DNA of 42,866 nucleotides, taken from NCBI GenBank assembly GCA_015062825.1, contig SUTR01000017.1:1-42866 (forward strand), read 5' to 3'. This stretch comes from Methanosphaera stadtmanae. Lineage in GTDB: Archaea > Methanobacteriota > Methanobacteria > Methanobacteriales > Methanobacteriaceae. Position 1 is the first letter of the stretch. Each line of letters starts with the position of its first letter. Shown piece after piece: positions 21,610 to 38,671 of the stretch. The notes below the pieces were generated by a model. That model was not told where the DNA came from. It ran no database searches and was given only the letters and a program-made list of their open reading frames with translations. The position numbers and the translations under genes are program-made.

Positions 21610-21848
21610 TTTATCAACTTTATGTTTTTTTCCCGTAAATTAATATTAATAATATATCTTATTGGTATCATTAATATATTTTGTTATCAAGTATGGTTAT
21701 AAAAATTTTTAATAGAAAAATAATATCCTAAAAAAAAATGTTATTTTAATTGGTTTGATGTTTAAAATGATAAATTTCAAAAAATATGTGAATAAAAATA
21801 AGTATTTGCATTTACAAATATTAGTATAATACACGCTGGTGAATGAAT

Positions 21849-24158
21849 ATGATAAATGATTTTAATAAAATGTTTGAATGTCTTTTAAAAACTCTTGAAG
21901 GTAAAGATGACTATTATTTTCTAGTAAATGATTCTAATAATGAAATACCTCAACATTATGATGAAAATTATGAAAGTGCATTTGATGCGGAGAAATTTAT
22001 TGAAAGCTATTTATCCAAGAAGATTTATATAGAAAACAATAACATGACCTATAACCTATTTGTAGTGCCGGATAAAAGTGTAGTCTTAAGAAACTACCTG
22101 CCATTTGATACTATAACACCTCGAAGAAATACAGATCAAATAAAGGACTATATTTATGATTTAAATGATATATTAACAGAAGAGGATTTCTTTAAAAATG
22201 ATACGCATATTAATTATATGGCAGCACTGAAGATTGTTCCTTTCATATTATCAAAAACAACCAGTAAATCACCAGCTGAAATACATGAACTTTTAATGAC
22301 AAAGTTAAAGATACGCTACTTCAATTATCCAGGTGACTTGTTTACAGATAAAAACTGGTCCTATCCCAAAGATGACCGATATGAAAAAAATGCCACATTA
22401 AGTGTGCAAAGAATAGATTTGACCGAAGATTTTGAAATAATTGATGGCAAAGAGATACCACCCGAATTTAGAAAGGTATCAAACAGTTTTAGTGAATATT
22501 ATAAGAATCCAAACAGCCTCACTGATAAGAAAGCACTGATTTTTAGAGATTCATCTACACAAAAATTACTATTTACATTCCTTGCATATTATAGGGAAGT
22601 ATTTCTATACTGGGATCAATGGTATTTCAATAAGAATTTAATAGACTGGTTTAAAGCAGATGATGTAATTGAAATAAGAACTGAACGCTTTCTTGACAAT
22701 CCATTATATCCAAATTACAACAATGATTTCATCTTAAGAAAAAAGTTAATGTATAACTTTGATATTTTTACATTACAGGATAATAAATTGACCGTCAGAT
22801 TATTTGCTAAGGATGTATACAACAAGTCAATAGATGCAGATGCAGATATCTATATAAACGATGATTTCATTAAGACTGCCACTTTCAAGGATGGATTTCT
22901 AGACTTTGAATATGACTTATCAGATTATCCTGATGATGAATATGTTATTAGATTCTCAGTAGAAAGTAATGAAATAAGAAAAACAGATATTGAACATCAA
23001 TTCCATTATTGTAAAGACTTCTTTAATGAAATTACCAAACTTAATCAAAGTCTTAAGGGACGAGATAACTATTATTTCCTGATAAATGATAAGGATAATG
23101 AACTAAGACAGCATTATGATAAAAATTATAAGTCAAGATATAATCTCAAGAATATGAAGAGATACCTTTCCTCAAAGAGAAAATTCTTTGATAATGAAAA
23201 TATTAGTTATGCACAGTTTATCATACCAGATAAGTCCGTTGTTCTAAGGGAATATCTTCCAATTGATACACATCCACCTAAAAGACATGTTAATGAATTG
23301 AAAAATTACATCTATGACTTAAATGACATATTGGATAGGAAGGATTATCTGATAAATGATACTAAAATATCATCCAAGTCTTCATTGAAGGTTGTATCAT
23401 ATATACTTCATAAAACCTTAAAGAACAAGTCACAGAAGGACATACATGATGAAATATCCAAGAGGACATATTTAAAGTCCTATATGAATAATGGTGATTT
23501 GTTTAATGATGATTCATGGTCATATGAAAAGAATGATGATTATCTAAACTATAAACATATAGAAGATGTAACTATCAACTTTAGAAATCCTGAAAGAATA
23601 ATTAAAATGGAGATACCTGAGAAGTTTAAAGAGTTTAATTCAGTCCAGTCAGAATACTATATAAATATAGACCCCTTATCCGATAAACATGCACTAATCA
23701 TTTGTGATAAAAGTATTTATCCATTAACCAATCCCTTAAAGACATACTTTGAAGAAATATTCTTCTATTATGATCATGGATACTTAAATAAGGATTTGAT
23801 TAATTATTATAATCCGGATGTGGTTATTGAAATAAAATCCGAAAAGACACTTGAAACTACAGTAACAACCCCAATATCCGAGGAAGGTAATGTCCTCATA
23901 CCTATTAAGGCATATATAAATGACATGAATGTGACTGATGATATGTTATCATTTAAATTAAACTGTAAGGATTTATGCAACTTACCTGTTAACACTACCT
24001 GTGAGGTATACCTGGATGATGAACATATCATTGATGGAAGAATATCTGATGGAAGCTTTAGTTTAGAGCATAAATTTAATAATCAAAGTCAGGAATTAAA
24101 AATAATTATCCGGCAAACAGGAAATACGAAATCAAAAATTATTACAAAAAAATTATGA
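21849..24158 (+). CDS. tandem AlgX/AlgJ-like SGNH acyltransferase-type protein
   Basis: A 769-residue protein made of two homologous halves (about 1-375 and 380-769), each an SGNH-like domain followed by a beta-sandwich. Each half opens with YYFLxND, has VxPDKSVVLRxYLP (the AlgX/AlgJ/DHHW-type region) and ends its domain with ADDVIEIRTER or PDVVIEIKSEK. In half one, Asp118-Thr-His120 and Ser235 (in FRDSS) match the Asp-x-His plus Ser triad of AlgX. In half two these read Asp504-Thr-Lys506 and Lys621, so the second site looks dead. Family members O-acetylate polysaccharides outside the cell; this one lacks a signal peptide and membrane segments. Start: ATG 21849 has GGTGA 6 bases upstream; ATG 21843 has it adjoining. 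Assignment is by motif only. Confidence 0.72.
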   Translation: MINDFNKMFECLLKTLEGKDDYYFLVNDSNNEIPQHYDENYESAFDAEKFIESYLSKKIYIENNNMTYNLFVVPDKSVVLRNYLPFDTITPRRNTDQIKDYIYDLNDILTEEDFFKNDTHINYMAALKIVPFILSKTTSKSPAEIHELLMTKLKIRYFNYPGDLFTDKNWSYPKDDRYEKNATLSVQRIDLTEDFEIIDGKEIPPEFRKVSNSFSEYYKNPNSLTDKKALIFRDSSTQKLLFTFLAYYREVFLYWDQWYFNKNLIDWFKADDVIEIRTERFLDNPLYPNYNNDFILRKKLMYNFDIFTLQDNKLTVRLFAKDVYNKSIDADADIYINDDFIKTATFKDGFLDFEYDLSDYPDDEYVIRFSVESNEIRKTDIEHQFHYCKDFFNEITKLNQSLKGRDNYYFLINDKDNELRQHYDKNYKSRYNLKNMKRYLSSKRKFFDNENISYAQFIIPDKSVVLREYLPIDTHPPKRHVNELKNYIYDLNDILDRKDYLINDTKISSKSSLKVVSYILHKTLKNKSQKDIHDEISKRTYLKSYMNNGDLFNDDSWSYEKNDDYLNYKHIEDVTINFRNPERIIKMEIPEKFKEFNSVQSEYYINIDPLSDKHALIICDKSIYPLTNPLKTYFEEIFFYYDHGYLNKDLINYYNPDVVIEIKSEKTLETTVTTPISEEGNVLIPIKAYINDMNVTDDMLSFKLNCKDLCNLPVNTTCEVYLDDEHIIDGRISDGSFSLEHKFNNQSQELKIIIRQTGNTKSKIITKKL

Positions 24159-25440: not shown

Positions 25441-28400
25441 TTATTTTAAATATTTTTTATATAGCCTAAGATAGTCTTCTCCCATTGATTGCGATGTTTT
25501 AAATGTTATGTCAGGTATTTGACTTGCTTTTTTCATGTATTCATCAGGATTTTCACTTATTCGTATGATTTCTTCATAGGCTTTCTGTGGATTTAAATCT
25601 ACAAAGAATCCTCCACCATTTGTTTCAACCCTTTCCTTTAATGCACCCAATCTAGTTGTCAGTACTGGTATTCCAGAGGCCCATCCTTCAGTTAGTGTAT
25701 GACAGTATGTTTCTGGCCATATGGATAGTATTGCAATAAAGTGTGGCTTTATGCTATGAACTATGTCTTCAAATTCACTTCTATCATAGAATCCATGATA
25801 TTCTCCAATATCCTCCAAGTCTTCAGAGCCCAATATACTCCCCATATAATGATATTCTAATCTATTATCTGTATCATATTCTTTTATGGCCTTTATCAAA
25901 TCATATCCTTTGCTGCTGTTTAGATGTCCCGGGAATACTATTCTTATTTTTTCATCAGATTTTATTGGACTTACATATTCTGTTGTATCAGGTGTCTTTA
26001 TATCTCTTCCATGTTCTATTATATTAAAGTCTCTTTCTATTAGTTTTGGATAATATTTTGTATAAATGTCATATGCTGATTGACATGTCGTGACATATGC
26101 ATCACAATTATCAAGTAATTTTTCTACATTATTACGCCATGCAGATATAATTGACTTTGCTATTGGTATATTAAGTCCTGCTGTTATTTGACATTGTCCC
26201 TGCCTATTGTTTTCTGGATTATATTCACTGCAGACTCCTGCACAGTAGTTTATGTTGTCATCCAATAGGTTGTGTGATGGACATACATAGTAGAAGTCAT
26301 GGAATGATAATATTACTGGTATGCCCAGACGTTTTGCAACTTCTGCCAAATCAAAAGATGAATAGATTAAATGTCTGATATGTACTATGTCAATGTTTAA
26401 TGTTACTAACATGTTGAAGCATATCATTTTCAGCTCTTCAATGCTTGTATTTAATGCAGAATAAATGTATTCTTTTGGCCATCTTCTGATTAGTTGAAGA
26501 TATTTTACAAATTCCTTATCGCCATCCTTATGTTCGGCTATGTTATTTCCAAGACTATTGTATTTATAGAGGGATATGTTTTGTCTTCCTGTTATTAAAA
26601 GATATGCATCCATTGTCTTATCAATATTCTTCATAAGCTCTATACTTGTATGTAATGTTCCACCAGATCCATCATGTATAGCATATAATATTCTTTTTCT
26701 GTTGTTTTTGGGATTTGTTGACTTTAAGGCATCATCTATTCTTATTCGAGTATTTTTAAAGTGACTTGAATCTACAAATTCATTAACCAATTGCTTATAT
26801 TCCGGATGTTTATTGGCTAGTATTACACGATTTTCTTTGATTAGCTTATCCTTTTGTTTGGAGAATGATGCACTTCTTTCATGATAGATGTATGTTGATG
26901 GATCTATTATATGATGATATCCTTTCTTGTTTAGTCTCATGCAGAAGTCATTTTCTTCTCCATATCCTTTGCCGAATATTTCATCAAAGAATCCTACATC
27001 ATATATTGCCTTTCTTTTAATATACATGCAGAATCCATTGGCTGTAGGTGTAAGGATAAATGAGTCATCTGATGCTTTTTCCACTATATTTGCCACGTCA
27101 TCAATTTTATCAGCTTCCACATCATTTATTCCTGCCTTTGGTACTGAGAATGCTCCTGCAGCATTTGATACTGGCGTTACACTTGCTATTGTTTCATGGG
27201 TGTATGCCTTGATTTTGAGCTTTTGAATCCATTTTGGTGTTACTATTGTATCACTATTTAAGAGCACCACGTCATTGCTTGTTAGTGTAAATGCCTTGTT
27301 CACATTCTTGACAAATCCCTGGTTGGTCTTGTTATGTACTACTGTTATGTTATCATGGTCTTCATATTTATCAAGAAGTGTTTTTATTCTTTCATCACTG
27401 CTGCAGTCATTTATCAGAAGCAATTCATAGTCTATTGTAGTGTTTTCAAGCACGCTTTCTATGCATTGTTTTGTCTGATTGTATGCATTGTATATTGGTA
27501 TTACTATTGAAACCTTATCCTTGAATGATTTGAGGATATTGTTTACTGTTTGTGTATCATATTTTAGATGATAGTATGAATCATAGGGTGTGTTGATTTT
27601 TCTTGTAAAGTATCCTGCATTTAAATGGTCATGTCTTTGGAAGTATACATTTTTCTCATAGAATACTGGTGATTCTTCTATTTTATAGTTGTTTTTCCAG
27701 CAGACATAGTTGAAGCTTAACTGATCACGATAGCTTCCATTTACTAGTTCTTCAAACCAGTCTTCCATGAGTTTTATAACCTGACTGTCATTGTGTTGTC
27801 TAAATAGAATTCCACTTGCTATCAGTCCATTATGACTTGGATATCCTTCTTTTTGATATCGTTTGACTTGTCTTATTATTGTATCTTCATTGTCTTTTTT
27901 GGATTTTATACATTCCTCTGCTTCATCATAGATACAGTCTCGTTTTTCATGTGTTATTGCAAGTATCCGTTTATCCTTTGAATAACGATTGACATAATCT
28001 GTTATATTACCGGTTATTTCAAAGTTTGTATCTATCCATAATGAATACTCATATTCTGATAGGTATTTATGTGGAAGAATCTTATACATACGTGCAGTTC
28101 TTACAGGATCATATTTGCTGTCCTTTATATGTTTTATCTGCCAGAAGTCTGACTTTAGATGTGGATTGTCTGTAAAGCAGATATAATCAAAGTCTTCATT
28201 TACATATGATGGAATTATTGGCTCATCATAGACTCCCGTTACTGCTGTATATACTACGCATTTATGTTTTGAAAAGTCTATATGTGACTTTTTATATTCT
28301 ATGAGTTCATCAAATCTTTTTATTGGATTTAATCTTTTGTCAGTTATGTCAAATACATTTTCAACACTTAGCTTTTTCTCATGTATCATGTCAATTTCCA

Positions 28401-31400
28401 AGTATTTGATTATGTTTGTATAACTTGTTGCAAGACGATTTGTTGGATGGTATAATCTTCTGGACTGTTTAACGTATAATAAGTCTATTTTCAGATTTAC
28501 CAAGAGATTGAAGTATAGTTTGAAGAACTTATCTTCATCCCAGGAATAATCAGTATTCCACTGGTTTAGGAGGATGGACAATTCTGGAGTATACTTATAG
28601 AACTTAATACTATCCTTCTCGACTGACAATATGTACGTATCATATTTTCTTGATAACCTTAGATACATTAGATGGTCAAAGTCCTGCTTTAAGTCAAATG
28701 TATCGGCGATGCATAGAATTCTTTGGGAATTCTGTCCTTTCTTTACATTATATTTAATGTTATCCAATGTTTTCTGTACTTCTACGGATTCTATGAAGTT
28801 ATCCCATTGATTGTATACATCAGGATATCTTTGTCTGATTATTTTCTTGTTCTTTATTTTTAGCTTATCCGTATTTTCCTTCTTGAATGATGCATGTCGC
28901 CTATGATATATGAATACTGATGGATTTCTGATGTTTATCCATCCATTCCTAATAGCTCTTTGAGTAAAATCTGTTTCTTCACCATAACCTCGGCCAAATA
29001 CTTCATCAAATAATCCAATATCATTTATTGCTTCTCGTTTAATAAATAGGCAAAAACCATTTCCTGTTGGACATTTTAGGTACTTGTTTGATAGTTTATC
29101 TGTCTGATAAGCCATATCATTTAGTGCATGTTGTGTCTTGTCACTTCCCAATATTTCTACTGATAAGTCAGATGCATTGGATATTGGTGTTACTGTTGCT
29201 ATTTTTGGATTGGAATATGCTGATATCACCATCTTTGATAGCCATTTTGGTGTTACTATTGTATCACTGTTTAATAGTATTACATCATGTTTTGATAATG
29301 AAATGCCCATATTTACATTCTTTACAAATCCCTGATTGGTCTTGTTATGTATGACTTTGATGTTATCAATATCCTCCAACAAGTCCAACAATTCATTTAT
29401 TCTCTCATCGGTACTGCAGTCATTTATCAATATTAATTCATAGTCAAGTGTCGTGTTTTCAAGTAGGCTTTTAATGCATTCTTTTGTCTGTTCATATGCA
29501 TTGTATATTGGTATGATTATTGTATATTTCCGTTGTAGGCTTTGGAATAATTCCTTTGATTGAAGCAGATCATATCTTGAATCATAGTTGGTGTTGAATT
29601 CATCCTGTACTATGAAGCTTTTACGTCCTTCTTTTATTCCATACTGCAGGTAATGATATAAGGGGTTTATATTATTTTTTTTCACATCCTGATATGCATT
29701 TTGATAATCCTCCGTTGAGAAAAACTGTGATGGATTGTATCCGATGTTTGCGCCTACCAGTATGTAATGAAGTATTGGATCCATATCATTATCTTCTACC
29801 TCAGGATAGTTTTCCATGTAGTAGTATTCATCAAAGTATTTTGATTCATATATTACATCATAGTATTTTCTTATATCCTCAGGATAGACTAGAATGTCCT
29901 GTAATTCGAGTTTTGGACGTTTGAATGGTCTGTGTTCCCTATGTCCATTCATAGTATAATGTATTACTGGATCTACTCCATATGTTTTTAAATCAAGATT
30001 CAATTGGAAGTATGATTTTTTATCAAAGAACTTGCTTGTTGGATAGTCTTCATATCTTCCCTTTCTTAGATAGTAGTCTATTGCATCATCATCATTGTCT
30101 ATGTTTGGATTGTGTTCGGTGTAGTATGTGCTGTCGAAGTATTTTGAATTTGATAAAACCGTATAGTTATCATTGTATTGTCTGTCCAGTACTGTATTCT
30201 TATCTATTAATGTATCATGTGGGGTGTCATTTTCATATTGTCCTTTGATTATGTAGTATACTAATGGATTGATATTTGATTCCTTAAGCATTGGCTTTGA
30301 AGTAGTATAATATGCTATGTCAAAGTTTTTATTTGGATTGATCTTTAGAGTTGCTCCTTTGCTGATAAAGTGACCGATTGGATTTATGATTTTTTCATCC
30401 AATTGACTGGTATAATATTCTTCATCAAATAATCCTGACTCGGCTATTATCTGATATTCCTGTGTATCATTAATGTCATGGGAAAACTCTTTATCAAGCA
30501 GCAGTTCCCTTTTACCGTTTAATATATGGTTGAATAATGGATTTGTTTGAATATCTTTATGTGTATTCATGTATTCTTTGGTGTTGAATGTTTTTGATGG
30601 ATTTCTATTGTGTTTTATACCATTTATCATGTAATCTGCAAGTAAGTCTTCTTCTTTTACTTCAGGATAATTGTTTCTGTAATATTCTTCATCAAAGAGT
30701 CCTTCCTCTTTTATCACATTGTATTCTATTGAATCAGTTATGTCATTATTTAATGGCTTGTTATAGTCATAATCATCATATTTGTAGTTTTTTGTTGCAA
30801 CTTTTACTATATAGTTAAATAATGCATCCTCATAGATGTTTTCATCATCTTTTTGATATGACTGCTTGTCGAATTCATCATTTAGATAATAATCGTTTTT
30901 ATAGCCAACTTCTATGTAATTTGCTATTTCATCTGTGTATATTCCCTTATCCTGATGGTTATTATATTCCTTTTTATCAAGTAGATTGTATTCTTCTATG
31001 AATATGTATGGATATGTATCTTGTATATCAACCATCAGTGGCTTGTTGTATGGATTATCCTTATGGTCATTGTGTGTTTGTATGTTAAATATGTAGTCAA
31101 GCAGGAGATTTTCTTCTTGAGGATGATATTGTTTTCTATAGTATTCTGTGTCAAATTCATCATATGGCCTGTAATCAAGTTTATATCCTGTTGTAATGTA
31201 ATGTATTATTGGATTTGTATCTTCATCCAATCCATATTCATCCCTGTACCATGCAGAATCAAATAATCCTGATTCGGATATTATATGGTATTCCTGTGAA
31301 TTATATATTTTATCATCATGTTTTGTTGCTGGTGGTTGGGTTGTTCGTTTATTCTTGTTTAGAATATAATCTACCAGTGGATTTGTTTGATTTGGAATAT

Positions 31401-32136
31401 TATAATAGTTTACATACCAGTTGGCATCAAAGTTCCTGTTGGGATTGTATTTGTGCTTTGCACCAATTAGCAGGTAATGTTCTATTTCATCAAATGTATC
31501 AATATATTCTTCATAGTCTTGATTTGTGTATTCATCATTGTCTGCCTTTTTAATGTAATTGCTGATATAATATTGCCTATCCATCAACTTGGATTGTTTT
31601 ATTAATTTATATGCAGGACTTAGCTTTATATCTGCCTGTAGGCTGGAGGGATTTATTTGTTGAATGTTGTTGGAATTTATTATATCTGCAAGTATATCCA
31701 GGTTGTTTATTAGTTGTATGTAGTACTGTTTATCCTGATATAGTTGTTTTAGTTGATTGTTTAATGTTTCATATTGTCCTTTTATGTTTGCTTCTTTTTC
31801 CAGTAGTTTGTCTTTTAGTGTTATGTCATATTGTGCTTGATTGTTTAAGGTTTTATTTCTTGATTGTTCTTTTTCAAAGGATTCTTTCAACTGTTTATTG
31901 TCCTTTTTTGCATTGTTTGACTTTTCTATTAAATCTTTTTGAATTTCTTTTATATGATTGTTGATATGATTTAATTTTCGAATTCTTTTTTCCTTATTTG
32001 TCTTATCAGTTAAGAGTGTTGTTACTTGTGAATATAATTGGTTAAATCTTTCTTCATCAAATTCAGGATTAAGACTTAAATAATTATTCTTCAGATAATC
32101 CAAGTATTCTATTAAATTAATATTATTTTCTTGAAT
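25441..32136 (-). CDS. giant multidomain glycosyltransferase A: coiled coil, seven double repeats, GT2, DUF616-like, GT2, GT4
   Basis: About 2231 residues. Domains (numbered from the TTG at 32103; add 11 for the ATT start): coiled coil 30-150; seven repeats of about 90 residues each, containing FDxxYY...NPLxHYxxxG (170-830); GT2 one (about 858-1060) with IIPIYNAYEQTKECI, LINDCSTD, LLNSDTIVTP and GYGEETDF; TOD1/DUF616-like domain (about 1278-1500) with YTAVTGVYDEP, WIDTNFEI, RDQLSFNY and RHDH; GT2 two (about 1530-1730), equally intact; GT4 (about 1800-2220) with GGTLHTSIEL, HDFYYVCPSHN and WPETYCHTLTE (E-x7-E). No signal peptide or membrane span, so cytosolic. It follows paralogue B by 19 bases, with GGTGGT before ATT at 32136; the first canonical start is TTG at 32103, without a site. 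Probably polymerises or decorates a surface glycan. Confidence 0.82.
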   Translation of the reverse strand: MQENNINLIEYLDYLKNNYLSLNPEFDEERFNQLYSQVTTLLTDKTNKEKRIRKLNHINNHIKEIQKDLIEKSNNAKKDNKQLKESFEKEQSRNKTLNNQAQYDITLKDKLLEKEANIKGQYETLNNQLKQLYQDKQYYIQLINNLDILADIINSNNIQQINPSSLQADIKLSPAYKLIKQSKLMDRQYYISNYIKKADNDEYTNQDYEEYIDTFDEIEHYLLIGAKHKYNPNRNFDANWYVNYYNIPNQTNPLVDYILNKNKRTTQPPATKHDDKIYNSQEYHIISESGLFDSAWYRDEYGLDEDTNPIIHYITTGYKLDYRPYDEFDTEYYRKQYHPQEENLLLDYIFNIQTHNDHKDNPYNKPLMVDIQDTYPYIFIEEYNLLDKKEYNNHQDKGIYTDEIANYIEVGYKNDYYLNDEFDKQSYQKDDENIYEDALFNYIVKVATKNYKYDDYDYNKPLNNDITDSIEYNVIKEEGLFDEEYYRNNYPEVKEEDLLADYMINGIKHNRNPSKTFNTKEYMNTHKDIQTNPLFNHILNGKRELLLDKEFSHDINDTQEYQIIAESGLFDEEYYTSQLDEKIINPIGHFISKGATLKINPNKNFDIAYYTTSKPMLKESNINPLVYYIIKGQYENDTPHDTLIDKNTVLDRQYNDNYTVLSNSKYFDSTYYTEHNPNIDNDDDAIDYYLRKGRYEDYPTSKFFDKKSYFQLNLDLKTYGVDPVIHYTMNGHREHRPFKRPKLELQDILVYPEDIRKYYDVIYESKYFDEYYYMENYPEVEDNDMDPILHYILVGANIGYNPSQFFSTEDYQNAYQDVKKNNINPLYHYLQYGIKEGRKSFIVQDEFNTNYDSRYDLLQSKELFQSLQRKYTIIIPIYNAYEQTKECIKSLLENTTLDYELILINDCSTDERINELLDLLEDIDNIKVIHNKTNQGFVKNVNMGISLSKHDVILLNSDTIVTPKWLSKMVISAYSNPKIATVTPISNASDLSVEILGSDKTQHALNDMAYQTDKLSNKYLKCPTGNGFCLFIKREAINDIGLFDEVFGRGYGEETDFTQRAIRNGWINIRNPSVFIYHRRHASFKKENTDKLKIKNKKIIRQRYPDVYNQWDNFIESVEVQKTLDNIKYNVKKGQNSQRILCIADTFDLKQDFDHLMYLRLSRKYDTYILSVEKDSIKFYKYTPELSILLNQWNTDYSWDEDKFFKLYFNLLVNLKIDLLYVKQSRRLYHPTNRLATSYTNIIKYLEIDMIHEKKLSVENVFDITDKRLNPIKRFDELIEYKKSHIDFSKHKCVVYTAVTGVYDEPIIPSYVNEDFDYICFTDNPHLKSDFWQIKHIKDSKYDPVRTARMYKILPHKYLSEYEYSLWIDTNFEITGNITDYVNRYSKDKRILAITHEKRDCIYDEAEECIKSKKDNEDTIIRQVKRYQKEGYPSHNGLIASGILFRQHNDSQVIKLMEDWFEELVNGSYRDQLSFNYVCWKNNYKIEESPVFYEKNVYFQRHDHLNAGYFTRKINTPYDSYYHLKYDTQTVNNILKSFKDKVSIVIPIYNAYNQTKQCIESVLENTTIDYELLLINDCSSDERIKTLLDKYEDHDNITVVHNKTNQGFVKNVNKAFTLTSNDVVLLNSDTIVTPKWIQKLKIKAYTHETIASVTPVSNAAGAFSVPKAGINDVEADKIDDVANIVEKASDDSFILTPTANGFCMYIKRKAIYDVGFFDEIFGKGYGEENDFCMRLNKKGYHHIIDPSTYIYHERSASFSKQKDKLIKENRVILANKHPEYKQLVNEFVDSSHFKNTRIRIDDALKSTNPKNNRKRILYAIHDGSGGTLHTSIELMKNIDKTMDAYLLITGRQNISLYKYNSLGNNIAEHKDGDKEFVKYLQLIRRWPKEYIYSALNTSIEELKMICFNMLVTLNIDIVHIRHLIYSSFDLAEVAKRLGIPVILSFHDFYYVCPSHNLLDDNINYCAGVCSEYNPENNRQGQCQITAGLNIPIAKSIISAWRNNVEKLLDNCDAYVTTCQSAYDIYTKYYPKLIERDFNIIEHGRDIKTPDTTEYVSPIKSDEKIRIVFPGHLNSSKGYDLIKAIKEYDTDNRLEYHYMGSILGSEDLEDIGEYHGFYDRSEFEDIVHSIKPHFIAILSIWPETYCHTLTEGWASGIPVLTTRLGALKERVETNGGGFFVDLNPQKAYEEIIRISENPDEYMKKASQIPDITFKTSQSMGEDYLRLYKKYLK

Positions 32137-32155
32137 AATACCACCAGCTATTAAT

Positions 32156-35100
32156 TTAATTGTTCAGATATTTTGCATATATCTGCATATATTCCTGTCC
32201 CATTTGTTTTGTTGTTTTGAATTTTATCTTTGTTATCTCTTCTTTTTTCTTATTATATTCATTTGTATCCATTGCATATTCAATTATTTGTTTATATGCT
32301 TTTTGAGGATTATCATCAAGTAAGTATCCTCCACCTTCACGTTTTATTCTCTCTCCTACTGCTCCCATGTCCAGGGCTAGTATGGGAACTCCACTGCCCC
32401 ATCCTTCTGTGAGTGTATGACAGTATGTTTCAGGCCATATTGAGAGTATTGCAATAAAGTGAGGATTGATTTTATGTATAATCTTATTGAAGTCACTTCT
32501 ATTGTAGACACCAAGATCCACTCCGACCTCTGCCAGGTCTTCATGTCCTCCCAGACTTCCCATATAATAGAATTCCAGTTTGTCATCCGTATCTATTTCT
32601 TTTAATGCCTTTATTATTTCATAGCCCTTGGTATGGCTTAGATGTCCTGGAAAAACTATTCTTATTTTTTCATCAGGATTTAATGTTAACCGTCTTTCTA
32701 TTGTATCAGGAGTTTTTACATCACGTCCATGTTCTATTATCCTGAAGTCACTGCTTTTTAGTTCTGGATAGAATTTTGTATAGATGTCATATGTTGATTT
32801 TGATGTTGTGACAAAGGTATCTATATTTTTAAACATATCCCTTACAGTATCACGCCATTTATGTACTATTGTACGTGTTAATGGAATGTTTAATTCTCCG
32901 ATGATGTTGCATTGACCTCCTAGTGCTGATTTTTCATATAATGGTGGGCATATTCCTCCACAGTATTGTCTGTTGTCATCTATCAGATTATGTGATGGAC
33001 AGACATAGTAGAAGTCATGGAATGATAATACTGTTGGTATTCCTATACGTCCTGTTATATATGGTAAATCAAGCGATGATTTGATCAGGTGTCTTATATG
33101 CACTATATCCACATTCAGATATACAAGTAGGTTGAAGTATATCCATTTTATCTGCTTATTGGATGTGTCAAGCAGTGTGTATTTTGATTTTAATTTCCAC
33201 ACCCTTAGAAGATTTAATTGTTTTTTAAATTCCTCTTCCTGTAGGGTGAAATTGCACTGGCCATTATCTGAATATTTGTAGAGTTCTATTTTGTCTGTTG
33301 ATGTGATTAAAAGATATGCATCCAGTTGATTGTTGATGTTTTTTATAAGCTCTATACTTGTATGTAATGTTCCTCCTATTCCACCGTGCAGTGCATATAA
33401 TATGCATTTCTTCTTGGTATTGTCCGATTTTATTCCATATTTGATGTTTCTTATTATATTGTTTAATTCTATTGATTCAATGTATTCGTTGATTTGTTCT
33501 TTTAATTCTGGATATTGTTTGAATAGATTATTCTTGTCTGTTGAATCTTTGTTAAATTCATTCTGATTATATATGAATGTGGATGTATCCAATGCATTTC
33601 TCCAGCCTCTATTTAAGAGTCGTCTTGAATAGTCAATTGCCGAGTATTCCTTTGTGAAGTTTATGTCAAAGAATCCTGTCTTGTATATTGCTTGCCTTTT
33701 TATATACATGCATCTGATATCTGATGTTGGTATGGTTAGTATTGTATTTCTTGACTTTTTCTCTATGTTGTTTGCTATTATTTCCAGATTGTCTTTTATA
33801 AAGTCATCGTCATCAGATATCTTATAGTATGGACTTTTGTTGAAGAGTGATGTTACTGTTGCAAAGTCCTTGTTTGAATATGCCTTGATTTTTAGTTTTT
33901 GCAGCCATTTGTTTGTAAATATATTGTTTGAGTCAACTATGACTATGTCATCTGTTGACTTGTTTATTGCCTGATTGATGTTCTGTACATATCCATAGGA
34001 TTTTTGATTATTTATTATTGTTATCTGGTCATACTTTTCAAATTCACTTAGTATTTTCTGAACTTGTATATCATTTATATTGTCATTTATAAGCATTAGT
34101 TCATAGCTGGTATTTGTATTATCCAGTATGCTTTGTATTGACTGTTTGAGATTATGGGAATTGGTTATTGGCATGATGATTGTTGTCTGATTAGAGAATG
34201 CATCCATGATGTCATCTATTTCTTCAGGCATATATTCAAGGTCATAATCCTTAGCATATTTCACATCAGCTATTCTTAGTGCAAATCCATTCTTTATATG
34301 GTCATGTCTTTGGAAGTATGGATTTTTCAGGTAGAAAATCTTTGCTTCATCATATGTGAAGTTGTTTTTATAGCAGGAATAGTTAAAGCTTAGCTGATCA
34401 CGATAACTGTAGTTTTCCAATTGATTATACCAATCCTGCATGACTTTGATTACCTGTTTATCGTTATGATTTCTAAATAGTATTCCACTTGCTATTAATC
34501 CATTATGTTCCGGATATCCCTCTTTTTTATATTCATCAATTTGTTTGGTAATTACATCAGATGAATCCTTATTGGAGTTTATGCATGTTTCTGCCTCTTG
34601 GTATATGCAATCCCGGAATTCATGTTTTATTGCAAGTAATTTGTTTTCTTTAGAGTATTTATGAATGTAATCCTCAAGGTTAGCTGTTATTTCAAAGTTT
34701 GTATCTATCCATATTGAATAGTCATATTCTGATAGGTATTTGTGTGGCAGAATCTTATATTTTCTTACCCTACGTATGTTATCAATGTCTTCTTCTTCCA
34801 TTAGCCTTATCGTCCAGAAATCTGATTTTAGTTGTGGATTGTCTGTAAAGCAAATGTAGTCAAAGTCCTTATTTACATATGATGGTATTATTGGCTCATC
34901 ATATTCTCCTGTGACTGCTGTATATACAACTACCCTTTTGTTGTTAAAGTCCAGTTTATTTTGTGCTTCTTCCATTATTTGCTCATAGCTTTTATCGTTG
35001 TAGAACATTTCATCCAATTCTTGTCTTAGATTTATGTCCTGATATGGGCATTCATGTATTTCATCAATTTCCAGGTATTTTACTAATTCTATGATTGACG

Positions 35101-38100
35101 TGAATTTTCTGTTTGTTGGATGATATAATTGTTTGAAGTGCTTTGTATATAATACATCAATCTTTAGATTGATTAATAGGTTGAAGTATGTTTTTTCAAA
35201 GAAGTTAGTGTCAAAGGAGTAGTCTACCTTGTTGTTGTCTATTAATGATAGGATACCCTTAGCATATTTGTATATGTAGTATTTTTCACCATCCAATGCC
35301 AATATGTATACGTCATATACATTGGAGATATGTTTTATTTTATCATCAAGTATTACGTTTTCATCATCATCCAATTGTGTAAATACCAGCATTCGTCTTC
35401 TGTTAATTGTCTTATCCCAGGTATCCTTTGTATTTATTATTTCATTAATTTTTTTAACTTCTATTGAATCATAAAAGCCGTTATGATATTCATCATTTAT
35501 ATCGGGATTTGCTTTTTTCTGTCGATTATAGAGGAATACTGAATTGTTTCTTAGATTAATCCAGCCCATATTATATAGGTCATATGAAAGAGTATGCATA
35601 TTGGTATAGTTGTAATTGTCTAGTTTTCCATATGCTTCATTTTTAATGTATATGCAGTAGTCTTCTGATGTGACTGATTGAATGTAATTATCATTGAATT
35701 GTATTTCAAATTCCTTTGATGTGTTGTTTAGGTTATTTTGTGTTGAGGATAGGATGTTATTGCTTTGTGTATTTAATATGTCTGATTGATTTGTTAGTGG
35801 TGATACTGTTGCTATCTTATCATCTGTATATGCACTGTATGTTAATTTGCTTAGCCAGTGTGGTGTTACTATTGTGTTTTTGTCAAGTATTACCACATCA
35901 GTTTCACAATCGGATAGTATGTTTGATATTTGTCTGTTTAGATTATCTGTTTTTATAATGTTAATGTTATATGCTTTTTCTATTACTTTTATATCATCTG
36001 GAATATCCTGTGTTGATATTACCATTAATTCATAATTTATATTTGTATTAGACAGTATGCTTGAAAGCGTCTTTTTAAAGTATTCTGTATCTGGATTGTA
36101 TTCTAGTATTATTGTCTTTTTGGACTTTAGGGCATTTAGCATTTTGTGTGTCTGGAGGTATGTGTATCTTTCCTGGATGTTATGTAGGAAGTATTCATTT
36201 GGCAGGTATATGAATCGTTTCTCTTTTATTCCATTTGTCAGATAATGATATAGTGGATTGAATCCTGTTCGTTTAATGTCGCCATGATATTTAAGGTATC
36301 TTGATGTTGAAAATAGTGATGAGGGATTTCTTGAATATCTCACTCCATTAACTAGGTAGTCTATTATTGGATCGGTATCTTCTTCTATTATCTGTGGATT
36401 GTTTCGGATATAGTATTCTTCACTAAAGAGGTTGCTGTCATAGATTAATGAGTATCTCTGATAGAATCCTTCCGGATATTTATCAAAGTCTTTTTCTTCT
36501 AGTTTGGGTCTTCTGTATGGTCTTTGTTCCTTGAGTCCTGATAGGATAAAGTGTACTAGTGGGTCGACTCCATGGTGTTTAAGGTCTAGGTTATATTTAA
36601 GATATTCATGGTGACTGAAGATTTTACTTGTTGGATATTTCTCATATCGTCCTTTTCTTAGATAGTAGTCTATTGCATCATCATCTTCGGTTATTGATGG
36701 ATGGTGTTTGATGTAATAGTCCTGGTTAAAGTATATGCTATCCTTTAATAGTTGATAGTTTCTTTCATAGTTTTCAATTTCATCTGGTGCTTCTAATTTA
36801 TAGCTGTCACATTTTTTATATACATCTAATGTATACTGGAGATATTTGTCTTTTTCTTGTGGTATCTGTTCATAGAGGTATGTTAGGTTCATGTTTGCTT
36901 TGGGATTTCTTCCTTCATATTGTCCATATTTGATGAAGTGTTCTAATGAATCTATCTGATTGGCTTTTACATCAGAATTTGTTTTTAGATAATATTCTCT
37001 GTCAAAGACTAGTGGATTGTCCAATATTGCATATTCCTGTAAATCCTGTGTTTGTATTGATTCATCCTTGTCTATCTTATGAATATATTCCTGTTTATTA
37101 TGAAGAAGATAATCCAATAATGGATTAATGGTACAGTTTGGATGATTTCTTAGGTATTGGTTGTTGTTGAATTGTTCTGATGGACTTCTTCCTTCCTTAT
37201 ATCCACTTTGAAGATAATGTTGTAGGGCATCGACTTTAGCATTTTTTACATCATGATATGTTTCCAGATAATAGTTTTCATCAAACAGTTCATCCTCCTG
37301 GAGGATATGGTATTCCTGTGAATCTCTTATCTGGGCCTGTGGTATGCTATCATATCCTGAGATATTATTGTCTGTATTATCAAATAGGTATTGCCATATG
37401 TCCTGGTTTTGATTGTTGTTAGTTGATTTGTTTAATGTATATCCTTTTTTAAATCCTTCATTTATAAAGTGATTGATTAAATCAGAATCGTTTATTTTAT
37501 AATTATTATGATACCATGTTTTATCAAGTAGTTGTGACTGCTCTATTGCATTGTATAACTGTGACTCATCAGTTGAAATGGCGGATTCCATGTTGTATTC
37601 ATTTGGAGTCTTATCCATATATCTTGTATCTGGATGGGTTATATAATCAAGAAGTGGATTTGCATCTAGGTATTGAAGATATGTCCTGTTATACCATTCA
37701 ACATTAAAGTCTTCACATGGTTTTGCTGCCTTATCATAACAGGTCAAGTAATATGTTACTAAGTCAATATCATCATCTAATCCATAGTGATTTTTATAGT
37801 AGTCCTTATCAAAGTATTCTGATTCATCTATTAATAGATATTCCTGTGATTGTGTTATATCCACGTCTGTCTTTTTGTTATATTCTGGTTGTATGAGTCT
37901 GTCGTGTTTTATTCCATAGCTTAAGTATTCGACAAATGGATTTATATCATAATTGTCATCCAAATAGATTATCCTATACCATTTTGTATTGAATTGTTCA
38001 TTTGGATTGTAGTCCTGTTTTGCTCCTATCTGTAGAAAATGTTCAATAGGATCTATATTCTCTTCATATTTATCCAGATACTGTTTGGTGTAATATTTAC

Positions 38101-38671
38101 TGTCGAATTGGTTGGAATTTTCTATTAATCTATAGTGGGGACTTGTCCTAATATCTGCAAATTGTATATTTTCATCTATGCTTATGGAAGTATCATTTAT
38201 TGTATCGGTAATTAATGAAAGATTTTCCATTATATTCTTATAATATTCTATGTCATTTTCTAGACGTGAAATTTTCTGGGTGTATTCAACTGTTTTATTT
38301 TGGTACGTGTTTATTTGACTTATCTGTTTGTTATTTTTAGAGTTAACTGAGTGTTTTATGTTATTGAGTCTGTCATTATCTTTGAGTAGTTTGTTGTATT
38401 GTTCTAGTAGTTTCTGGTTTTTTATTACAAGCTGTGATAAGGTGACTTTTATGTCTTTGATATATGATGTTATGTCACTGTTTCTTTTTTCTAAATTGTT
38501 GATGTTTTGTGTTAATTTGTCATTTAGAGAGCATAGTCTTATGAATTCTTCCATGAAAAGATTGAATTTTTCAGTATCTTCCTTAACATATTTATCTCTA
38601 AAATCAGTCAGATATGATTTTAATATGTTTTCGTTTATTGTTGTAATTTTAATCACCCAGATATAAAGCAT
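32156..38671 (-). CDS. giant multidomain glycosyltransferase B: paralogue of A with degenerate GT2 domains
   Basis: 2171 residues with the same order as paralogue A: coiled coil (40-155), seven double repeats (165-830), GT2-like one (about 849-1060), TOD1/DUF616-like (about 1240-1460), GT2-like two (about 1497-1700), GT4 (about 1750-2165). Both GT2-like units have lost catalytic signatures: LNSDT is LDKNT in the first and VDSNN in the second, and GYGEE-D-F is EYSAIDYS in the second. DUF616-like (YTAVTGEYDEP, WIDTNFEI, RDQLSFNY) and GT4 (WPETYCHTLTE) stay intact. First of the two-gene unit. A TATA box near 38695-38707 would start RNA near 38675, so ATG 38671 would be almost leaderless. Alternatively GGGTGAT at 38652-38658 serves an ATT at 38647, where homology with A begins. 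Confidence 0.82.
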   Translation of the reverse strand: MLYIWVIKITTINENILKSYLTDFRDKYVKEDTEKFNLFMEEFIRLCSLNDKLTQNINNLEKRNSDITSYIKDIKVTLSQLVIKNQKLLEQYNKLLKDNDRLNNIKHSVNSKNNKQISQINTYQNKTVEYTQKISRLENDIEYYKNIMENLSLITDTINDTSISIDENIQFADIRTSPHYRLIENSNQFDSKYYTKQYLDKYEENIDPIEHFLQIGAKQDYNPNEQFNTKWYRIIYLDDNYDINPFVEYLSYGIKHDRLIQPEYNKKTDVDITQSQEYLLIDESEYFDKDYYKNHYGLDDDIDLVTYYLTCYDKAAKPCEDFNVEWYNRTYLQYLDANPLLDYITHPDTRYMDKTPNEYNMESAISTDESQLYNAIEQSQLLDKTWYHNNYKINDSDLINHFINEGFKKGYTLNKSTNNNQNQDIWQYLFDNTDNNISGYDSIPQAQIRDSQEYHILQEDELFDENYYLETYHDVKNAKVDALQHYLQSGYKEGRSPSEQFNNNQYLRNHPNCTINPLLDYLLHNKQEYIHKIDKDESIQTQDLQEYAILDNPLVFDREYYLKTNSDVKANQIDSLEHFIKYGQYEGRNPKANMNLTYLYEQIPQEKDKYLQYTLDVYKKCDSYKLEAPDEIENYERNYQLLKDSIYFNQDYYIKHHPSITEDDDAIDYYLRKGRYEKYPTSKIFSHHEYLKYNLDLKHHGVDPLVHFILSGLKEQRPYRRPKLEEKDFDKYPEGFYQRYSLIYDSNLFSEEYYIRNNPQIIEEDTDPIIDYLVNGVRYSRNPSSLFSTSRYLKYHGDIKRTGFNPLYHYLTNGIKEKRFIYLPNEYFLHNIQERYTYLQTHKMLNALKSKKTIILEYNPDTEYFKKTLSSILSNTNINYELMVISTQDIPDDIKVIEKAYNINIIKTDNLNRQISNILSDCETDVVILDKNTIVTPHWLSKLTYSAYTDDKIATVSPLTNQSDILNTQSNNILSSTQNNLNNTSKEFEIQFNDNYIQSVTSEDYCIYIKNEAYGKLDNYNYTNMHTLSYDLYNMGWINLRNNSVFLYNRQKKANPDINDEYHNGFYDSIEVKKINEIINTKDTWDKTINRRRMLVFTQLDDDENVILDDKIKHISNVYDVYILALDGEKYYIYKYAKGILSLIDNNKVDYSFDTNFFEKTYFNLLINLKIDVLYTKHFKQLYHPTNRKFTSIIELVKYLEIDEIHECPYQDINLRQELDEMFYNDKSYEQIMEEAQNKLDFNNKRVVVYTAVTGEYDEPIIPSYVNKDFDYICFTDNPQLKSDFWTIRLMEEEDIDNIRRVRKYKILPHKYLSEYDYSIWIDTNFEITANLEDYIHKYSKENKLLAIKHEFRDCIYQEAETCINSNKDSSDVITKQIDEYKKEGYPEHNGLIASGILFRNHNDKQVIKVMQDWYNQLENYSYRDQLSFNYSCYKNNFTYDEAKIFYLKNPYFQRHDHIKNGFALRIADVKYAKDYDLEYMPEEIDDIMDAFSNQTTIIMPITNSHNLKQSIQSILDNTNTSYELMLINDNINDIQVQKILSEFEKYDQITIINNQKSYGYVQNINQAINKSTDDIVIVDSNNIFTNKWLQKLKIKAYSNKDFATVTSLFNKSPYYKISDDDDFIKDNLEIIANNIEKKSRNTILTIPTSDIRCMYIKRQAIYKTGFFDINFTKEYSAIDYSRRLLNRGWRNALDTSTFIYNQNEFNKDSTDKNNLFKQYPELKEQINEYIESIELNNIIRNIKYGIKSDNTKKKCILYALHGGIGGTLHTSIELIKNINNQLDAYLLITSTDKIELYKYSDNGQCNFTLQEEEFKKQLNLLRVWKLKSKYTLLDTSNKQIKWIYFNLLVYLNVDIVHIRHLIKSSLDLPYITGRIGIPTVLSFHDFYYVCPSHNLIDDNRQYCGGICPPLYEKSALGGQCNIIGELNIPLTRTIVHKWRDTVRDMFKNIDTFVTTSKSTYDIYTKFYPELKSSDFRIIEHGRDVKTPDTIERRLTLNPDEKIRIVFPGHLSHTKGYEIIKALKEIDTDDKLEFYYMGSLGGHEDLAEVGVDLGVYNRSDFNKIIHKINPHFIAILSIWPETYCHTLTEGWGSGVPILALDMGAVGERIKREGGGYLLDDNPQKAYKQIIEYAMDTNEYNKKKEEITKIKFKTTKQMGQEYMQIYAKYLNN

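Follow-up and report, generated by a model that had tools for sequence, protein, structure and literature searches.

Two giant paralogous glycosyltransferase genes in tandem

The window, a 42,866-nucleotide contig of the methane-making gut archaeon Methanosphaera stadtmanae, contains two very large genes in tandem on the minus strand, with that for protein B upstream of that for protein A. Both open frames lie where the initial annotation had placed them, and the two genes belong to the same operon. The proteins are 44% identical across almost their full length and have the same order of modules: a coiled coil, repeats of about 38 amino acids, a GT2 domain, a linker, a TOD1/MUCI70 domain (PF04765, formerly DUF616), a second GT2 domain and a GT4 domain. 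The initial annotation had described this common order, and the frames and Pfam matches agree with it, apart from the linker between the first GT2 domain and TOD1, which we add. We take NSD to be the metal motif, EE the base motif and ExxxxxxxE the type of the GT4 site, following general knowledge of these families. The features are as follows.

25441 to 32103, minus strand: protein A, giant glycosyltransferase, both GT2 sites intact; 2220 amino acids from TTG at 32103
31624 to 32139, minus: A, N-terminal coiled coil; heptad periodicity, 3 Pro/Gly per 155 amino acids
29554 to 31623, minus: A, short-repeat region (FDxxYY...DPLxHYLxxG...), without Pfam family
28819 to 29553, minus: A, first GT2 domain (GT2-1), intact
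29260 to 29274, minus: A, GT2-1 LNSDT (metal Asp), residue 944
28975 to 28989, minus: A, GT2-1 GYGEE (catalytic base), residue 1039
27529 to 28323, minus: A, TOD1/MUCI70 domain (PF04765, E 1.3e-16)
26764 to 27528, minus: A, second GT2 domain (GT2-2), intact
27247 to 27261, minus: A, GT2-2 LNSDT, residue 1615
26953 to 26967, minus: A, GT2-2 GYGEE, residue 1713
25444 to 26718, minus: A, GT4-type GT-B domain
32156 to 38671, minus: protein B, paralogue of A, both GT2 sites lost; 2171 amino acids from ATG at 38671
38177 to 38647, minus: B, N-terminal coiled coil; heptad periodicity p<0.01, 0 Pro/Gly per 155 amino acids, weak coiled-coil Pfam matches
36152 to 38134, minus: B, short-repeat region
35492 to 36139, minus: B, GT2-1, degenerate; GT-A fold predicted
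35873 to 35887, minus: B, GT2-1 LDKNT replacing LNSDT, residue 929
34202 to 34993, minus: B, TOD1/MUCI70 domain; retains 67 of 68 invariant residues
33467 to 34201, minus: B, GT2-2, degenerate
33923 to 33937, minus: B, GT2-2 VDSNN replacing LNSDT, residue 1579
32159 to 33418, minus: B, GT4-type domain; retains 85 of 91 invariant residues

Pfam finds two GT2 matches in A (161 bits) and a weak GT2 signal in B (54 bits), whereas the TOD1_MUCI70 scores (61.2 bits in A and 57.9 in B, cut-off 21.4) and the GT4 scores (PF00534; 34.0 and 30.3 bits, cut-off 26.4) of B resemble those of A. Searches of Pfam and PDB found no relative of the short repeats.

A probably does not start at the TTG at 32103, because the first residues of a conserved N-terminal helix (NLIxYLxxL) are encoded further upstream. 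Translation probably starts instead at the ATT at 32139 or 32136, which has the Shine-Dalgarno-like sequence GGTGGT ahead of it, and B has a candidate alternative start, the ATT at 38647 behind GGTGAT. Several family members seemingly use ATT or ATA starts behind a Shine-Dalgarno sequence (38645-38647 and 32134-32139 in the window; loci L050, L053, L052 and L054); apparent cases are GGTGAT-4-ATT for B of the window, AGGTGAT-4-ATT for B of G008, and the starts of both B and A in G005. In the single-copy enzyme of G017, the first ATG, GTG or TTG is codon 74, yet the conserved repeat begins before codon 30.

Distribution and evolutionary history

The five-module family is present in 19 of 20 Methanosphaera genomes, so that the fusion is not special to the A/B pair. 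Most species carry a single copy at one syntenic locus, which in most of the genus is flanked by asparagine synthase on one side and by a cation efflux gene and RqcH on the other. The B-A tandem occurs in four of the 20 genomes: that of the window, G008, and the metagenome-assembled genomes (MAGs) rholeuAM74 (G006) and rholeuAM130 (G005), in both of which B is cut by contig ends. The initial annotation had named conservation of the pair in other Methanosphaera as a check on its reading, and three further genomes indeed have it. In G005 the A gene is split over three frames, probably through an assembly fault in this MAG.

Among 139 genomes of the taxonomic family, full-length five-module matches are confined to Methanosphaera, and in three other genera only the GT2-GT4 part matches. 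A profile scan of the genomes of 84,980 species (78 loci) likewise found the five-module order nowhere beyond Methanosphaera, the bacterial relatives being GT2-GT4 or GT2-GT2-GT4; a single-sequence scan of genome contigs with A had given no match.

In a tree of the TOD and GT4 domains, the A and B sequences, eight in all, group as one clade (support 100/99). Three of the Bs form a subclade within it (100/99). A single clade that includes G006 B as well has neither support nor rejection (p-AU 0.28), so a single duplication is not proven.

Several other rearrangements and neighbours were noted. G001 has an independent tandem copy (L064, 11539-14928) with an intact GT2-1, a dead GT2-2, a truncated TOD1 and no GT4, a similar modular decay in another lineage. 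In isolate SIG24 (G019; L059, 2025-8801), an internal duplication of GT2-linker-TOD1 has given the order GT2-TOD1-GT2-TOD1-GT2-GT4, and the first two GT2 copies are almost identical. Frames of 12,000 amino acids in G001 (L104, contig C44) were set aside because they look artefactual: the adjoining stretch is open in all six frames, like masked N. In the window, the asparagine synthase (TIGR01536, 19784-21259) is the neighbour kept in most of the genus and could be a housekeeping enzyme or one that amidates a sugar of the product. A 771-amino-acid protein of two similar halves, without a convincing Pfam family, is encoded at 21843-24158, and G006 has a relative close to the pair (L051, 195-1544).

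Modular loss of active sites in B

Four residues show no variation across 42 intact Methanosphaera GT2 domains, namely the metal Asp, the first Glu of the base, the Asp of the nucleotide site and the terminal His, so their loss in B is not a matter of chance. Both GT2 domains of A have the metal Asp and the base Glu, and the motifs that the initial annotation had read there and at the corresponding positions of B (LDKNT and VDSNN) are as it reported. It had also noted disappearance of the acidic base from the second GT2 domain of B. The base is missing there (YSAID, residue 1676), but it is missing from the first domain as well (YTNMH, residue 1022).

None of the four Bs retains the base, the His or the nucleotide-site Asp in GT2-1. 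The metal Asp of this domain survives in G006 but not in the other three, and GT2-1 has lost the NxGF loop as well. In GT2-2, the metal Asp, base and His are gone from three of the four Bs, the domain of G006 being perfect. The terminal YH of the B GT2 domains reads YN in the window. With the positions that never vary among 11 active proteins as reference, conservation in the three B-clade proteins is 36-38% for GT2-1 and 36-50% for GT2-2, compared with 94-99% for TOD and 93-96% for GT4, which makes the inactivation strictly modular. The corresponding figures for G006 B are 46%, 100%, 96% and 97%. The earlier view of a tandem duplication that left A fully motif-intact and B with both GT2 sites lost, but with intact TOD1 and GT4 domains in both proteins, is thereby upheld for the window.

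The second GT2 domain is degenerate in three Bs and fully intact in the fourth, so GT2 loss was either stepwise or in part independent. The initial annotation had counted a B relative that keeps the DxD as evidence against its reading; G006 B is such a relative in its second GT2 domain, but its first is still degenerate. Recent gene conversion does not account for the intact domain, in which A and B of G006 are 67% identical, not above the identity of A with A. Sequencing error or pseudogene formation in the window is ruled out as the cause of motif loss, since three further genomes show loss with open frames. GT2-2 was lost separately in G018 and in the second tandem copy of G001 (the copy whose TOD1 is broken and which lacks GT4), making this a recurrent trend.

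A coiled coil confined to the pair

All A and B proteins with a readable N-terminus open with a stretch of about 150 residues that has the character of a coiled coil (0-5 Pro/Gly per 155 residues and heptad periodicity, as judged by a home-made heptad test rather than a dedicated predictor). The single-copy orthologues lack this region; their repeats run from the start, with 9-16 Pro/Gly. The single-copy protein of G012 also passed the periodicity test, but repeats are visible in that part of it, which contains 10 Pro/Gly. In A and B the coiled coils share an N-[LI]-x-x-YL start and look homologous, and the feature therefore probably predates the duplication, as would fit a homomer turned heteromer. 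The presence of this coiled coil in both proteins, and its restriction to the pair, is circumstantial evidence that makes an association of A with B likely. Provided that the upstream starts hold, A begins within about 20 nucleotides of the B stop codon in all four genomes.

B could instead be an independent, simpler enzyme, unassociated with A, whose TOD and GT4 domains make a different, shorter glycan and whose GT2 domains are folded spacers. Retention of 93-99% of the invariant residues in its TOD and GT4 domains is in keeping with this, as is the faster evolution of its GT2 domains described below; we nevertheless consider it unlikely, given the pair-restricted coiled coil, the tight operon order in four of four genomes and the preservation of domain sizes despite near-saturated synonymous divergence.

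Purifying selection and predicted fold of the B GT2 domains

Between species, A and B are alike in the identity of their TOD and GT4 domains and similar in that of the linker. Their GT2 domains differ, with 32-56% identity in B versus 71-83% in A and dN values of 0.36 and 0.35 versus 0.16 and 0.11. The B GT2 domains evolve two to three times faster than those of A, as expected under relaxed constraint. Because dS is saturated, we simulated neutral drift to the fourfold-site divergence between G008 and G005. The neutral expectation for each domain is 15% identity and about 13 stop codons; the observed values are 54% and 53% identity and no stops. The B GT2 domains have accordingly remained under purifying selection.

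These results bear on the view that the B GT2 domains have no role and are decaying toward loss. The graded states of the Bs (only the GT2-1 site gone in G006, both sites in the others) and the decay of other tandem copies, such as that of G001, are what such a process would produce. The gap between observed and neutral identity, the missing stops and the fact that neither GT2 domain has been deleted in any of the four genomes make it quite improbable.

An AlphaFold model of a 906-residue stretch of B, helped by active homologues in the alignment, shows GT-A-like GT2 domains (mean pLDDT 82.5) and matches chondroitin polymerase, LARGE1, WrtF and CHSY3-CHPF in PDB, with E values down to 5e-14. 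With the four B sequences as the only input, the model is confident for the N-terminal, nucleotide-binding half, which has pLDDT values of mostly 71-88 and resembles GT2 structures, but not for the acceptor half.

All six GT2 domains of the B clade read D-x-N/K where active ones read N-x-D, the metal-Asp position being N, N and N in GT2-1 and N, K and N in GT2-2. The base Glu pair has become N/M, N/I, Y/L, S/A, C/L or S/L, with Glu at neither position, and the His has become N, T or A; GT2-2 retains the nucleotide-site Asp and the Asp that follows the lost EE. Alternative metal and base residues, which the initial annotation had considered, are conceivable in the first respect, in that D-x-N/K could supply a metal ligand at a displaced position, but nothing in the alignment takes the place of the base Glu. 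That these domains remain active through a rearranged site, with the metal bound by the first Asp of D-x-N and a different residue serving as base, is thus very improbable despite the parallel change in all six domains and the Asp residues kept in GT2-2, for the base and His are replaced and GT2-1 lacks the nucleotide-site Asp and NxGF loop besides.

A and B as proposed subunits of one synthase

On balance, we favour the reading that A and B are the two subunits of a single heteromeric glycan synthase with multiple sites, which arose by tandem duplication in place. It draws on the syntenic single copy elsewhere as against the tandem here, the tight B-A spacing, the residue loss confined to GT2, purifying selection, the pair-only coiled coil, the GT-A-like predictions for B and the precedents of CHPF and EXTL3 discussed below. 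The ancestor would have been a single-copy Methanosphaera five-module enzyme that gained an N-terminal coiled coil, permitting self-association, in the lineage of the pair. After duplication, working GT2 sites would have been needed in one subunit only. A would keep four catalytic sites, namely two GT2 activities, TOD1 and GT4. B would supply TOD1/MUCI70 and GT4 sites together with two non-catalytic modules, folded GT-A domains which, having lost metal, base and acceptor-site residues, would keep the complex assembled and might also bind the acceptor chain. We infer the coiled-coil heteromer, catalysis by A and by the remaining domains of B, the sugars and the product; the workplace of the heteromer would be a cytoplasmic surface-glycan pathway.

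Some observations pull the other way. The B GT2 domains evolve faster, as relaxed constraint would make them do; the coiled coils of A and B could each form homodimers; the tree does not join G006 B to the other Bs, so that one duplication is not proven; and the fold model of B owes something to the active homologues.

An extension of the heteromer reading takes the dead B GT2 domains, reshaped alike (N-x-D to D-x-N/K, base and His lost, fold kept), as a non-catalytic pair that binds the growing chain or nucleotide and so sets how long the glycan made by A becomes or how it is patterned. We regard this as rather unlikely; if true, the matched pair would be a built-in ruler in an archaeal synthase.

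Comparison with known synthases and significance

Active-plus-dead paralogue pairs are already known for animal and plant sugar polymerases. In the animal chondroitin polymerases, CHPF is structural and required by CHSY (PMC12748766). Human CHSY1/3-CHPF/CHPF2 thus resemble A/B as paralogous multi-domain glycosyltransferases of which one is active and the other dead-site and structurally required (PMC12748766), and A/B are likewise a paralogous pair, one member of which has dead sites under purifying selection. Unlike A and B, with four glycosyltransferase domains each, they have two per chain; they are animal Golgi enzymes without sequence orthology to A/B, and CHPF is considered to lack activity in all its parts, while B retains two modules out of four. 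EXT1-EXT2 and EXTL3 are bi-domain transferases that form hetero- or homodimers, and EXTL3 keeps its GT47 domain in inactivated form (PMC9178029); they differ in being eukaryotic and in combining GT47 with GT64 rather than GT2, TOD1 and GT4.

The Escherichia coli K4 chondroitin polymerase KfoC (2z86/2z87), the best PDB match of A by sequence and of B by fold, also has two GT2 domains per chain, but both are active, and it has no TOD1, GT4 or dead partner. GAUT1 and GAUT7 are GT8 enzymes and differ from A/B in being single-domain and in Golgi anchoring. The likeness of this pectin synthase lies in an active transferase anchored by its paralogue (PMC7533613). Closest are the single-copy Methanosphaera enzymes (G017 and others), which share the locus and the order GT2-linker-TOD1-GT2-GT4, without coiled coil or partner and with both GT2 domains intact in nearly all. 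A limited search of open-access papers found no archaeal active-plus-dead paralogue pair.

Methanosphaera stadtmanae has reportedly acquired many glycosyltransferases from bacteria, which are thought to serve surface variation (PMC3445992). In G006 B, with one dead and one live GT2 domain, the order of steps from enzyme to structural partner may be readable, and the single-copy species are natural controls for the pair. The A/B pair also offers a tangible starting point for work on the surface glycans of gut Methanosphaera, which have been little studied.
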